From contig NZ_CYSB01000040.1 of assembly GCF_001458255.1 (NCBI RefSeq), forward strand, positions 248,001-312,000: a stretch of DNA of 64,000 nt, given 5' to 3'. Shown one piece after another: positions 18,966 to 21,922 of this stretch. Under the pieces are notes generated by a model. The model had not been told where the DNA came from. It did not search any database and saw only the letters and a program-made list of their open reading frames with translations. Origin of the DNA: Thalassovita autumnalis. GTDB taxonomy: Bacteria; Pseudomonadota; Alphaproteobacteria; Rhodobacterales; Rhodobacteraceae. The translations under genes were made by a program, and so were the position numbers. Position 1 is the stretch's first letter. Each line of letters opens with the position of its first letter.

Positions 18966-19433
18966 ATGCCCAGCCAACTGACCCGTCGCCACATCCTGCT
19001 GACCCTGCCCGCCGCAGCCGCCGCGCTGAGCCTGCCCAGCCTTGCCAGCGCCGCGACGCCGAAGATCTACACCGAAGACGGCATTGCCGTGGATGGATCG
19101 GATGTGGTGGCCTATTTCACTGACAAAAAGCCGGTGATGGGGCGCGCAGACATCACCCATGACTGGATGGGCGCCACCTGGCGGTTTGCATCTGAGGAAA
19201 ATCGCGCCGCCTTCGCCGCCGACCCCGAGGCCTATGCGCCGCAGTTTGGCGGCTATTGCGCCTATGCGGTTGCCAATGGCGCCACCGCCCCCACTGTGCC
19301 CGAGGCCTGGCGCATTGTGGATGGCAAACTGTACCTGAACTTCTCCAAAGGGGTGCAGAAGCGCTGGCTTGAAGATGTGCCGGGCAACATCGCCAAAGCC
19401 AACGCAAACTGGCCCGCGGTATTGGACCGTTAA
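18966..19433 (+). CDS. Exported YHS-domain protein
   Basis: The 155-residue protein has an N-terminus with twin Arg and a hydrophobic Ala/Leu stretch ending in ASA near residue 31 (LTRRHILLTLPAAAAALS), so export by Tat or Sec is likely. The mature part is a YHS domain: YTEDGIAVDGSDVVAYF, WRFASEENRAAFAADPEAYAPQFGGYCAYAVANG. YHS domains are small Cys-containing modules linked to metal binding, though only one Cys is visible here. It converges on the ABC-F gene with a 4-nt 3' overlap. Confidence 0.85.
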   Translation: MPSQLTRRHILLTLPAAAAALSLPSLASAATPKIYTEDGIAVDGSDVVAYFTDKKPVMGRADITHDWMGATWRFASEENRAAFAADPEAYAPQFGGYCAYAVANGATAPTVPEAWRIVDGKLYLNFSKGVQKRWLEDVPGNIAKANANWPAVLDR

Positions 19434-20962
19434 ACCTCCACCTGCATCTGGCTGGAAAAGAAGCCTTCGGGGGCTGCCACCTCCTGCAGATGAGCGGTGG
19501 AGCCGCGCGGCGTGATCTGCCAGAACCGGGTGCCGGTGTTGCGCACAAAGGCGCGGTCATGACTGACGATCAGGGCTGTGGTGCCCTCGGCCTGCAGTTC
19601 GGCCTCCAAGGCTTCCTGTCCTTCAATGTCCAGGTGGTTGGTCGGCTCATCCAGAACGTAGAAGTTCGGCTGTTTCAGGCGCAACAGCAACATCGCCAGC
19701 CGCGCCCGCTGTCCACCTGACAAGTTAGACAGGGGGCGGTCCTGCATCTGATGGGCCATGCCGGCGCCAGCTAGCACCATCCGGGCAGACCGATCGCCGA
19801 TGTCGGAACTGCCCGCCACCGCCTCCATCGGGGTTTTGAAGGATGCAAGCTGGCTAAGATCCTGCGTGGAGACACCCGGCACCGCCGAAGGCACCCCCCG
19901 GATCTGCGCATCCTGCCCGGTCAATGCCGCGATCACCCGTTTGACCAGCGTCGTTTTCCCAGACCCGTTGCCACCCAGCAAAACCACCCGGTCACCCCGG
20001 TTGATCCACAGCTGCGGGACCTTGAACAAAAGCGCCCCATCGGGCCGCAAAACCTCACAAGGGTCCAGCGTGACCAAGGCCTTGTTATGGGTGCTGGAGC
20101 TGTCGAGGCGGATCCGCCCGGCGCTACGGTCCTGTTGGGCGGGGCGCGCTGCCTCTTCCAGCCTGTCCGCCCGGGCGGTCAGCTGTTTGGTCTTGGTCAG
20201 CAAGAGGTCCGAGCCTGAGTTGATGCCGGTGTTTTTCAGCTTCGCCGCCTGACGCCGCAACTGGCCCGCTTTGGCCATGTCATTTTCAAACTGGCGCGCC
20301 TGGGCCGCGTCATGTTCCACCAGCGCAGCGCGCGCGGCGCCATAGGGCAGCGCATATTGCGGGGATCCATCTGTGCGCAGGAACAGGCTGCGATTGCAGG
20401 TCGCTTCCAGAAAGGCGCGGTCATGGCTGACGATCACACAGGCCACCTGCCGGGCCACTGTGGCCAGCCAGTCCTGTAGGATGCCGATCCGTTGCAGATC
20501 CAGATGGTTGGTCGGCTCATCCATCAGCAAGACATCGGGCTCTGCGATCCAGGCCCGCGCCAGCAGCGCCACCCGTTGCCAGCCGCCGGACAGCGTGGTC
20601 ATCGGCTGGTGCCACAACTCAAAAGGCACCTGCAGATCAGCCAAAACCACATCCACCCGCCAGCTTTCATGTTCGGCCAGATCAGTGTCCAGCGCCCCCA
20701 GCACCACGTCATAAAGGCTGAGGGACAACAGATCGTCAGGCACATGCTGCGGCACTAGGGCTGGGCGCAGGCCACGGGCGGCGGTGCGCTCCCCCTCGGT
20801 GGGGTCCAACGTACCCGACAGCAACGACAGCAAGGTGGATTTACCGCGCCCGTTGGCGGCGATTACACCCAGGCGGTCACCTTTGTTCAGCGTGACAGAG
20901 AGGTCGCGAAACAGAGGATCCGCGAAAATGACAGCGGTTTTGTTCAGGGAAATCAGGGACAT
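19430..20962 (-). CDS. ABC-F family ATPase
   Basis: This 510-residue soluble protein has two ABC cassettes and no membrane domain. Walker A motifs are ANGRGKST and GGNGSGKTT; signature motifs are TLSGGW and NLSGGQRARLA; Walker B is VLLMDEPTNHLDL and FYVLDEPTNHLDI. The linker between the cassettes is basic and helical (residues ~230-285), as in ribosome-acting ABC-F proteins. These bind the ribosomal E site and relieve stalling or antibiotic block. The first cassette reads GRGKST where GxGKST is usual, which is tolerated. It has a structured leader with a 23-codon upstream ORF (20963-21146), so translation-linked control is likely. Confidence 0.9.
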   Translation of the reverse strand: MSLISLNKTAVIFADPLFRDLSVTLNKGDRLGVIAANGRGKSTLLSLLSGTLDPTEGERTAARGLRPALVPQHVPDDLLSLSLYDVVLGALDTDLAEHESWRVDVVLADLQVPFELWHQPMTTLSGGWQRVALLARAWIAEPDVLLMDEPTNHLDLQRIGILQDWLATVARQVACVIVSHDRAFLEATCNRSLFLRTDGSPQYALPYGAARAALVEHDAAQARQFENDMAKAGQLRRQAAKLKNTGINSGSDLLLTKTKQLTARADRLEEAARPAQQDRSAGRIRLDSSSTHNKALVTLDPCEVLRPDGALLFKVPQLWINRGDRVVLLGGNGSGKTTLVKRVIAALTGQDAQIRGVPSAVPGVSTQDLSQLASFKTPMEAVAGSSDIGDRSARMVLAGAGMAHQMQDRPLSNLSGGQRARLAMLLLRLKQPNFYVLDEPTNHLDIEGQEALEAELQAEGTTALIVSHDRAFVRNTGTRFWQITPRGSTAHLQEVAAPEGFFSSQMQVEV

Positions 20963-21106
20963 TTGCTCAGTCTTTCATGCACAGGGTGGCAGCGCATCGG
21001 CTGCCGATTAGGGCAAATCGAAAGACATGGCGCCGGCTAGGTTGGTCAGTGATCCGGCGGAATGCTGTCTCTGATCAGCCCTGCAAACGGATCTGCAGGG
21101 CACCCA
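20960..21106 (-). promoter_or_regulatory. Candidate translational attenuator of the ABC-F gene
   Basis: In minus-strand RNA order: hairpin 1 lies inside the end of the small ORF (CCCTGCA 21079-21085 with TGCAGGG 21094-21100). Hairpin 2 is CGCCGG (21031-21036) with CCGGCG (21054-21059). Hairpin 3 is GGCAGC (20988-20993) with GCTGCC (21000-21005). Two further interleaved pairings are GAAAGAC (21020-21026) with GTCTTTC (20970-20976), and GCAAAT (21013-21018) with ATTTGC (20961-20966). The latter covers the first two bases of the ABC-F start codon. They are mutually exclusive or form a pseudoknot. Confidence 0.5.
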
Positions 21107-21146
21107 CCGGTCCGCGGGTTCGATCGTGATAACGTTTGATATGCAT
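21075..21146 (-). CDS. 23-residue leader peptide upstream of the ABC-F gene
   Basis: An ATG preceded by a strong GGGAGGG ribosome site opens a 23-codon frame, 113 nt upstream of the ABC-F start on the same strand. The peptide begins MHIKRYHDRTRG and ends QIRLQG; it is basic, with no membrane segment. Its last third overlaps a perfect 7-bp hairpin that a translating ribosome would open. Small leader ORFs are known regulators of antibiotic-resistance ABC-F genes (msr and vmlR type). That it acts so here is inference. Confidence 0.5.
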   Translation of the reverse strand: MHIKRYHDRTRGPVGALQIRLQG

Positions 21147-21241
21147 CCGACCCTCCCTCATTGACTGGTCTGGTTTTACAAGAACTAACGCGACGCTAGC
21201 GGGCCTCAACCCAAGGGTCAAGCCGCAGCGAAACGGTGGCG

Positions 21242-21514
21242 TCACTTCAGCTGACTGTCTTTGGAGCCGCGGCGATTGATGCCGCCGCGCTGCTGGAAGG
21301 CGCCATCACGTTCTTCCTGACAATCGATGCACAGTTTCACCCCGGGGCGCGCCAGACGGCGGGCTTCGGGGATTTCCTCTTCGCACTCAGCACAATGGGT
21401 CAGGCTATCCCCCTGAGGCTCCGCCCGAGAGGCCCTCATGCGGGCCAGCTCATCCTTGATCGAGGCTTCGATCTGTTCTTCCACTGCGCCATCACGCGCC
21501 CAACCACCAGCCAT
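21242..21514 (-). CDS. Short DksA/TraR-type C4 zinc-finger protein
   Basis: The 90-residue protein has the motif CAECEEEIPEARRLARPGVKLCIDC, a C-x2-C...C-x2-C zinc finger of the DksA/TraR family, after a short N-terminal helix (EEQIEASIKDELARMRAS). It lacks the long coiled coil of full-length DksA, resembling short YbiI/TraR-like members that can enter the RNA polymerase secondary channel. It is a single gene between the ABC-F leader and a small membrane protein. Confidence 0.85.
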   Translation of the reverse strand: MAGGWARDGAVEEQIEASIKDELARMRASRAEPQGDSLTHCAECEEEIPEARRLARPGVKLCIDCQEERDGAFQQRGGINRRGSKDSQLK

Positions 21515-21604: not shown

Positions 21605-21922
21605 TCAGTCCAATTCGGTCCAAGGCCAAGGTTTGTCTTCGCTATCCGCCGTGATGTAGCGGGTCGCCTTGGCAAACCAGATACCGATATCGGTGCCAAA
21701 TCCGGCAATCCGTTCATTGCGCCGTTTGCCATTGGTCAACAGGATCCCCGCCTGCAGCAGCGCCAGAACCCCGATCACGGTTGAGGCAAAGCCCATCATC
21801 ACCCAGATCACGACGGAATACAGGATCCGCGCGCCCGGGCTTTCCACCACCACCAGCGATCGCGGTTCGGGCCGTGGTTCACGGTCCGGCATGACCTCAT
21901 CAAATTCGTTAGGATCCGCCAT
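21605..21922 (-). CDS. DUF4389-type small membrane protein
   Basis: The 105-residue protein has an acidic/Pro N-terminus, one hydrophobic segment (ILYSVVIWVMMGFASTVIGV) running into a second (LALLQAGILLTNG), then KRRNERIAGFGTDIGIW and DSEDKPWPW. This pattern matches the DUF4389 family as I know it. The function is unknown; the location is the inner membrane. It lies ~90 nt upstream of the DksA/TraR-type gene on the same strand. Confidence 0.7.
   Translation of the reverse strand: MADPNEFDEVMPDREPRPEPRSLVVVESPGARILYSVVIWVMMGFASTVIGVLALLQAGILLTNGKRRNERIAGFGTDIGIWFAKATRYITADSEDKPWPWTELD

Follow-up and report, generated by a model that had tools for sequence, protein, structure and literature searches.

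Does a 23-codon open reading frame, lying upstream of an ABC-F gene in an alphaproteobacterial genome, control the translation of that gene? The question concerns the minus strand of the window, by which we mean the whole stretch of 64,000 nucleotides that was analysed, and a preliminary description of this stretch had taken the small frame and its interleaved RNA pairings for a candidate translational attenuator. Our survey supports this reading: absence of the leader and its pairings from relatives would have counted against it, and the leader, its hairpin and the competing helices are conserved there and covary. By comparison of sequences we consider it probable that the leader and its RNA arms form a translational attenuator, similar in architecture to those of erm and cplR and with an arrest-like motif of its own. 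The frame itself (21146-21075) and the GGGAGGG site in front of it (21157-21151) are present as they had been described. The features of the locus, all on the minus strand, are the following.

21151..21157, minus strand: GGGAGGG, the Shine-Dalgarno-like site of the leader, 4 nt before the leader ATG
21075..21146, minus strand: leader ORF of 23 codons, MHIKRYHDRTRGPVGALQIRLQG and stop, conserved in 47 of 47 ortholog-bearing genomes
21108..21113, minus strand: Gly-Pro codons of the GP(V/R) motif, 4 codons before arm 1, the presumed stall site
21095..21101, minus strand: arm 1, GCCCTGC, the Ala-Leu codons (covariation, codon table)
21078..21084, minus strand: arm 2 as paired with arm 1, GCAGGGC (covariation)
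21066..21082, minus strand: arm 2 as paired with arm 3, AGGGCUGAUCAGAGACA, spanning the leader stop (nascent fold, covariation)
21010..21027, minus strand: arm 3, UGUCUUUCGAUUUGCCCU, a switching strand (covariation, nascent fold)
20970..20976, minus strand: arm 4, GAAAGAC, a purine-rich stretch for ribosome binding, 8-14 nt upstream of the ABC-F ATG
19430..20962, minus strand: gene of an ABC-F protein of 510 aa with two ABC_tran stretches, presumably the regulated gene

The four arms give three competing helices, namely 1:2 within the leader, 2:3, and 3:4 over the ribosome-binding site of the ABC-F gene; in the numbering of ermC-type attenuators, 1:2 and 3:4 are the resting pairs and 2:3 the induced one. 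The hairpin recognised earlier over the last third of the leader is real and longer than the 7 bp then given, pairing GCCCTGCA (21101-21094) with TGCAGGGC (21085-21078), and is supported by the alignment. Helix 2:3 of the window is composed of AGGGC:GCCCU, GAUC:GAUU and AGAGACA:UGUCUUU (16 pairs), while the partner of arm 4 is GUCUUUC of arm 3 (21026-21020); the consensus of arm 3 is GRUCNGCCC. Two mutually exclusive pairings had also been proposed, which we identify as follows. That of 7 bp, GTCTTTC (21026-21020) with GAAAGAC (20976-20970), is kept in loci L002 and L003, and its counterpart at other loci is helix 3:4. That of 6 bp over the ABC-F start codon, ATTTGC (21018-21013) with GCAAAT (20966-20961), is not conserved, L002 having ACAAAT and L003 GAATTATG, and was rejected as a switch. 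In a search of Rfam no family reached its gathering score in the window, the leader region giving a snoRNA fragment at E 1.9, far below the gathering score.

The leader follows the ABC-F ortholog closely among genomes. Within a family sample of 394 genomes, about one per genus, the ortholog is patchy and was found in 45 (E 1e-70 or better), with the next ABC-F proteins of family members at about E 1e-52. All 47 genomes with an ortholog, i.e. these 45 and the same-genus genomes G002 and G007, carry the leader; 46 of the leaders were aligned and that of L111 was read by eye. No start codon was recognised by the script in L111 or in L117, the latter being the 3' part of a gene whose 5' end lies in L068. 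Among the best 80 of 517 named loci, which partly overlap with the 47 genomes, 72 possess the leader (71 by the strict search and L200 by eye); they belong to roseobacters, Roseibium, Pelagibius, Denitrobaculum, Kaistia and the Brucella/Ochrobactrum group, and the eight loci of these 80 in which it was not found are four of Kiloniella, one of an uncultured Rhodospirillales, and L215, L225 and L236. Of 15 further genomes of the class with an ABC-F match, eight have the leader (in G580 with QPV replacing GPV), and the other seven comprise six with distant ABC-F genes (33-41% identity; L152-L156 and L007), which show no such leader, and one whose upstream sequence is the same as in a Kiloniella.

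A covariance model of the leader (R1) gave 46 strong matches in the 394 family genomes, 45 of them before the ortholog and one, in G309, before a disrupted copy of the ABC-F gene. Since 44 of the 46 genomes had supplied training sequences, these match by construction; the two strong matches outside the training set are G342, which has the ortholog, and G309. Three weak matches (E 0.002-0.008), with no ABC-F gene in the 2.6-2.8 kb retrieved around each, are taken for chance. In 327 genomes of the class the model produced seven matches, all before an ABC-F gene, but passed over three leaders that were recognised by eye (G576, G671 and G580); weak leaders can be missed because the filters are strict and few candidates were scored per genome. 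No leader was seen before any other gene within these R1 genome searches. A search by hairpin pattern was unspecific, matching 175 of the 394 genomes; among 20 rows picked by eye from the matches listed, 16 were a leader with its ABC-F gene (that of L068 at a contig end), and L076, L077, L079 and L080 were not. As judged from the genomes searched, the leader is tied to one ABC-F lineage in several families of Alphaproteobacteria.

The product of this lineage is probably a ribosome-protection protein. The best NCBIfam model for the window protein is NF000355 (ribosomal-protection-like ABC-F), at 289.1 bits and below the cut-off of 380, and the same model is matched by all 16 scanned orthologs with E 1e-40 or better. 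None of the curated models of resistance ABC-Fs is passed by the window protein, with Vga, Sal, Msr, Lsa, OptrA and CplR far under cut-off. Against solved structures, a profile of 16 orthologs placed VmlR2 (8buu) at the top (260 bits), with EttA, Uup, YbiT and YheS close behind; the window protein searched as a single sequence placed YbiT at the top, and a fold search with a structure model (pTM 0.52) did not separate resistance from housekeeping ABC-Fs. Its closest named relative among the best 80 of 517 is that of Thalassobius sp. Cn5-15 (72%). A survey of ABC-F proteins, in the part concerned, takes an uneven distribution among members of a genus to hint at a resistance ABC-F (PMC6723617), and the scattered occurrence of the ortholog fits that hint.

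The leader peptide is variable except for G-P-(V/R)-x-A-(L/P). In the codon table of 46 leaders, Gly and Pro each occupy their position in 45, encoded by four different Gly codons and three different Pro codons; such synonymous variation indicates that the Gly-Pro constraint acts on the peptide. The following residue is V in 30, R in 13, A in 2 and F in 1, and is succeeded by any residue. The Ala codon is GCC in all 46 and the next one CTG in 41 or CCG in 5, these codons being held at the RNA level as arm 1 of the hairpin. Across 111 leaders the motif classes are GPR (57), GPV (45), GPD (3), GPA (2), GPT (2), SPV (1) and GTF (1), so that 102 have GPR or GPV. The remaining peptide falls into classes such as HDRTRGPV, RRLQHGPR, RPGPV and YGPV, with 7-21 codons upstream of the internal GP(V/R) motif. 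A start codon with an SD-like site was seen in 98 of the 111 by a loose scan in which CTG was also allowed, and the start position is uncertain in the QHGPR class. The distance between the Ala codon and the stop codon downstream of it ranges over 2-14 codons (111 leaders); in 41 of 111 it stands directly after Ala-Leu, ahead of arm 2, which is still kept there as noncoding RNA. The conserved part of the peptide is GP(V/R), 4 codons before arm 1, rather than the variable stop.

Two known types of stalling motif were compared with these peptides. The +X+ motif is a macrolide stalling motif; it was rejected as a common feature of the leaders, R.R being found in 27 of 111 and K.R in 5 of 111. A RAPP-like arrest identity was rejected as well, RAPP, RGPP and RAGP occurring in 0 of 111 leaders within the 16 residues up to Ala-Leu. 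Arg stands immediately before GP in 27 of 111.

A covariation analysis, suggested already with the preliminary description, supports the helices. In a swap test, the two arms of each sequence were set against arms from other homologs by their duplex energies, over 10,000 permutations. For each of 1:2, 2:3 and 3:4, 0 of 10,000 permutations were as good in the 46 sequences, and again 0 of 10,000 in 65 further non-identical sequences (81 before removal of 16 duplicates, from genera partly common to the first set). Arm combinations outside the model were no better than swapped ones: 1440 and 6538 of 10,000 for 2:4 and 4538 and 6440 for 1:3 (46 and 65 sequences, respectively), and 7815 for 1:4 (65-sequence set only). 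By the swap test, covariation is thus confined to the three helices of the model. A sequence's own arms were its best partners in 29 of 46 rows for 1:2, 1 of 46 for 2:3 and 6 of 46 for 3:4.

In helix 1:2, 94.6% of alignment cells are paired, compared with 86.3% for shuffled sequences and no more than 52% for arms slid out of register; 0 of 500 shuffles reach the covariation score, and 44 of 500 have as many pairs with both sides changed. The change from Leu to Pro (CTG to CCG) is accompanied by CAG to CGG in arm 2, giving UA in 41, CG in 5 and no unpaired case, and on a FastTree tree of the ABC-F proteins joint change of arms 1 and 2 is seen in 7 of 7 independent pairs (p 0.016 by a sign test); on this same tree 3:4 and 2:3 go in the right direction, with independent pairs too few for significance. 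For 2:3, 88.8% of cells are paired (at most 54% when slid) and 1 of 500 shuffles reaches the covariation score, the pairs changed on both sides being not above shuffles (320 of 500). A perfect 3:4 helix of at least 6 bp is present in 58 of 111 sequences (5.0% of shuffles) with 42 distinct helix sequences, and among those 58 the median distance from its end to the ABC-F ATG is 7 nt. Raw letter tables, restricted to rows with exactly the letters concerned (55, 53 and 43 rows), gave 26, 0 / 12, 17 for arm 2 by arm 3 (p 8e-7), 31, 6 / 3, 13 for arm 3 by arm 4 (p 1e-5), and 17, 3 / 12, 11 for the off-model arm 2 by arm 4 (p 0.03), the last of which gauges how much shared descent alone may contribute. 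Helix 2:3 is the least compelling of the three, because its arms lie near consensus and a swapped arm 2 pairs in 316 of 333 nascent control folds. The presence of the leader in 47 of 47 ortholog genomes, together with the covariation, excludes chance.

The way in which leaders were collected bears on some of these counts. The script sought (G[PT] or SP) x x A(L/P) over GCCC(T/C)G, plus an arm 2 complementary to arm 1, and this filter could make the Ala-Leu codon counts and helix 1:2 circular; arm 3 was located by its consensus motif, independently of arms 2 and 4. In the first set 46 of 46 sequences passed, each with exactly one such place. Among 19 sequences of the second set that the script missed, none was excluded for a non-complementary arm: L147 and L157 have GCCCCAC:GTGGGGC, L200 has GTCCTG:CAGGGC, and L146 has QPV replacing GPV, and in the other 15 the leader was not found on inspection. 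Alignment A2 excludes L116.

Folding was computed for several states of the RNA. Left free at full length, it forms 1:2 in 45 of 46 sequences, and 3:4 is favoured over 2:3 in 40 of 46 and 56 of 65; if only the RNA after arm 2 can fold, as with a ribosome at the leader end, 41 of 46 and 54 of 65 sequences form 3:4. When arm 1 is covered, the equilibrium fold of the full-length RNA goes over to 2:3 in 22 of 46 and 50 of 65 (72 of 111). The nascent RNA before arm 4 is made, where 2:3 was called formed at 4 or more expected pairs, is predicted to form 2:3 with arm 1 covered in 110 of 111 (46 of 46 and 64 of 65) and with arm 1 free in 68 of 111 (32 of 46 and 36 of 65); covering arm 1 thus raises 2:3 and is not its sole route. 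With shuffled spacers, nascent 2:3 was obtained in 138 of 333. The nascent RNA of the window gives 8.7 expected core pairs of 2:3 when covered and 4.8 when free. Its full-length equilibrium fold with arm 1 covered does not switch and stays 3:4, which implies that co-transcriptional timing must matter there, and from these folds we infer that the switch of the window would be kinetic and co-transcriptional. A simple switch of start accessibility at equilibrium failed as a candidate: mean accessibility of the ABC-F start region in 44 sequences was nearly unchanged (0.415-0.433 free and 0.438 with arm 1 covered), and the covered state lay above both others in 29 of 44.

Sequence and folding give the arrangement of erm-type attenuators, with 1:2 and 3:4 at rest, 2:3 on covering arm 1, and arm 4 at the ribosome-binding site. 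The traits of ABC-F leader attenuators are likewise present, i.e. a conserved, short, translated-looking uORF and mutually exclusive pairings of which one closes the SD/RBS. We infer the stall at GP(V/R), its trigger, the induction and the ABC-F feedback as follows. At rest, when leader translation is quick or the RNA is free, 1:2 and 3:4 would pair and the ABC-F ribosome-binding site would be shut. A ribosome-targeting drug, or other slow peptide-bond formation at Gly-Pro-(Val/Arg), would hold a ribosome at the motif, where it would cover arm 1, fixed 4 codons downstream. The freed arm 2 could then pair with arm 3 once the latter is made, so keeping it off arm 4, and the ABC-F gene would be translated; its protein presumably relieves the stall and thereby closes its own switch. 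The difficulty raised earlier, a gap of ~50 nt between the leader stop and the switching strands, is removed by helix 2:3, since the 3' side of the hairpin within the leader takes part in the switching.

The switching partner left unnamed in the preliminary description is arm 2, that is, the 3' arm of the hairpin with bases past the stop, pairing with arm 3.

Other readings of the locus differ in what the stall senses or where it acts. The leader could arrest ribosomes in the absence of any drug, with a self-arresting GP(V/R) acting as a homeostatic sensor that responds when the ABC-F factor, or else EF-P-like help, is lacking. This would agree with a GP(V/R) motif that is kept while the remaining peptide varies, with the SecM-type arrest core RAGP and the support of arrest by RGPP and RAPP in the account given by PMC12992588, and with the reduction by MsrD of its own expression via a leader stall as described in PMC10314930; however, none of the 111 leaders has RAPP, RGPP or RAGP, Arg directly precedes GP in the minority of leaders given above, and a gene present in only 45 of 394 genomes suits drug protection better than a housekeeping factor. 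We therefore regard a drug-free sensor as rather unlikely, though a serious alternative. It shares its RNA switch with the attenuator that we prefer and differs from it in the trigger.

Alternatively, the stall could decide whether transcription stops early in the interval from leader to gene, by an intrinsic or a Rho-dependent route, the pairing at the RBS being secondary. Known ABC-F leaders do end transcription, that of MsrD (PMC10314930) and in part that of CplR (PMC10201436) according to the sections concerned, and the need of the window's own switch for co-transcriptional timing would suit such a mechanism, as would a T8 right after arm 3 in L006 and a hairpin followed by at least 5 T in 6 of 111 sequences (loose scan). 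Yet no terminator-like site was found in the window between 20850 and 21350, so an intrinsic terminator between leader and ABC-F gene was rejected there; a run of at least 5 T occurs in only 12 of 111 sequences, and the position of arm 4 on the ABC-F ribosome-binding region is a requirement of a translational switch. Transcription attenuation accordingly seems improbable. That the leader is a small peptide gene with its own function, beside incidental helices, is harder still to reconcile with the data and in our opinion very improbable: it looks translated (98 of 111 by the loose scan), but its peptide is unconserved outside GP(V/R)xA(L/P), its end wanders relative to the Ala codon, and the noncoding arms covary.

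The translational attenuator that we favour has several known counterparts. The cplR leader of Clostridioides difficile, as presented in the relevant part of PMC10201436, likewise combines a short uORF with RNA folding by which the SD of a resistance gene of the ABC-F type is either masked or exposed, and is a case of translational attenuation. That uORF has three codons (MRI), belongs to a Gram-positive organism and works jointly with transcriptional attenuation, whereas here 7-21 codons precede GP(V/R), the window has no terminator-like site and the hosts are alphaproteobacteria. For msrD, a stall in the leader MsrDL also controls an ABC-F gene whose protein feeds back on the stall, as we propose here; this stall, in the description of PMC10314930, occurs at codon 6 with erythromycin-type macrolides and acts through an intrinsic transcription terminator, while our leader is longer and its switch lies at the ribosome-binding site. 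The regulated ABC-F leaders compared are Gram-positive and, where lengths are given in the passages of PMC10201436 and PMC10314930 concerned, of few codons. In ermC-type attenuators, to which the arms are likened, a leader stall alters mRNA structure and exposes a downstream SD (PMC10219788, in part); here the downstream gene encodes an ABC-F rather than a methyltransferase, the leader peptide is unrelated and the taxon different. SecM and RAPP-like arrest peptides are regulatory leaders too and resemble ours in a conserved core that contains Gly-Pro or Pro, but those known earlier precede protein-localization genes according to the portion of PMC12992588 used, in contrast to the ABC-F gene here. 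Related literature covers uORF4u (PMC10219788), context-specific inhibitors (PMC13410324), a Sinorhizobium uORF attenuator (PMC12218461), VmlR (PMC9226507), EttA (PMC11282234) and a topAI uORF (PMC12121999). In titles and abstract openings of openly licensed papers, no leader-controlled ABC-F gene in Alphaproteobacteria was reported among the matches listed.

More tentatively, and with somewhat less than even confidence, we suggest that GP(V/R) four codons before arm 1 may be a new, short and portable arrest motif that senses a ribosome-targeting compound or a lack of the ABC-F protein, with the ABC-F resetting the switch. If so, the locus would represent a self-limiting ribosome-protection circuit in a Gram-negative lineage of marine and soil alphaproteobacteria, with a motif unlike the macrolide and RAPP-like motifs checked. 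The peptide offers a handle, in that whatever stalls ribosomes at Gly-Pro-(Val/Arg) would tell what the ABC-F protects against, and the leader marks a group of genes in environmental Gram-negatives that probably protect ribosomes and are inducible. This leader is recognisable with a compact RNA model and itself points to one ABC-F lineage.

Several genes flank the leader, the short ORF with a GP(V/R) motif, and its ABC-F gene in the window:

21242-21514, minus strand: DksA/TraR-type zinc-finger gene, upstream of the leader on the same strand
21605-21922, minus strand: DUF4389 gene, likewise upstream and on the same strand
18966-19433, plus strand: YHS-domain (seleno)protein family gene, convergent (NF041384, 165 bits vs 70)

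The end of a DksA-type gene was also found upstream of the leader at two of the compared loci, L002 and L003.

In leaders with Gln-His-Gly-Pro-Arg at the motif (the QHGPR class; L084, L081 and others), a conserved CTG lies 6 nt past GGAGGG whereas the ATG lies 12 nt past it, and judging from this spacing translation of the leader may start at the CTG. In the Brucella/Ochrobactrum group (L223, L228 and L230), the leader peptide reads HHRQ(H/Y)GPDFALHK before its stop codon, and arm 2 is located approximately 150 nt upstream of the ATG. Helix 3:4, over the ABC-F ribosome-binding region, is present in all three, and its sequence is quite different there: two of them have ATTCTGCC and the third has TTCTGCC.

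In L006, T8 stands immediately 3' of arm 3, the partner strand of helix 2:3. From the sequence, this combination of helix and T8 looks like an intrinsic terminator in the single genome L006; such an arrangement would imply a logic opposite to that of the attenuator model, where formation of 2:3 opens the gene.

Inspection by eye of the DNA upstream of the Kiloniella ABC-F orthologs (L161, L169, L170 and L144) revealed no GP(V/R) leader. All four share a different block in the last ~120 nt 5' of the ABC-F start, with CTACCTTT and AAAGGTAG, which are mutually complementary in L144, L161 and L169 and slightly different in L170, and with GAGACA close to the ATG. The ABC-F gene may here be under another kind of regulator, represented by this block.

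In genome G309 (L128, about 450-1632), the leader MRITRRLQHGPRSAL, ending in a stop, precedes a disrupted ABC-F copy, probably a recent loss. One in-frame TGA each occurs in the ABC-F matches L100 (G327) and L146 (G580), and the L146 leader has Gln-Pro-Val instead of Gly-Pro-Val.
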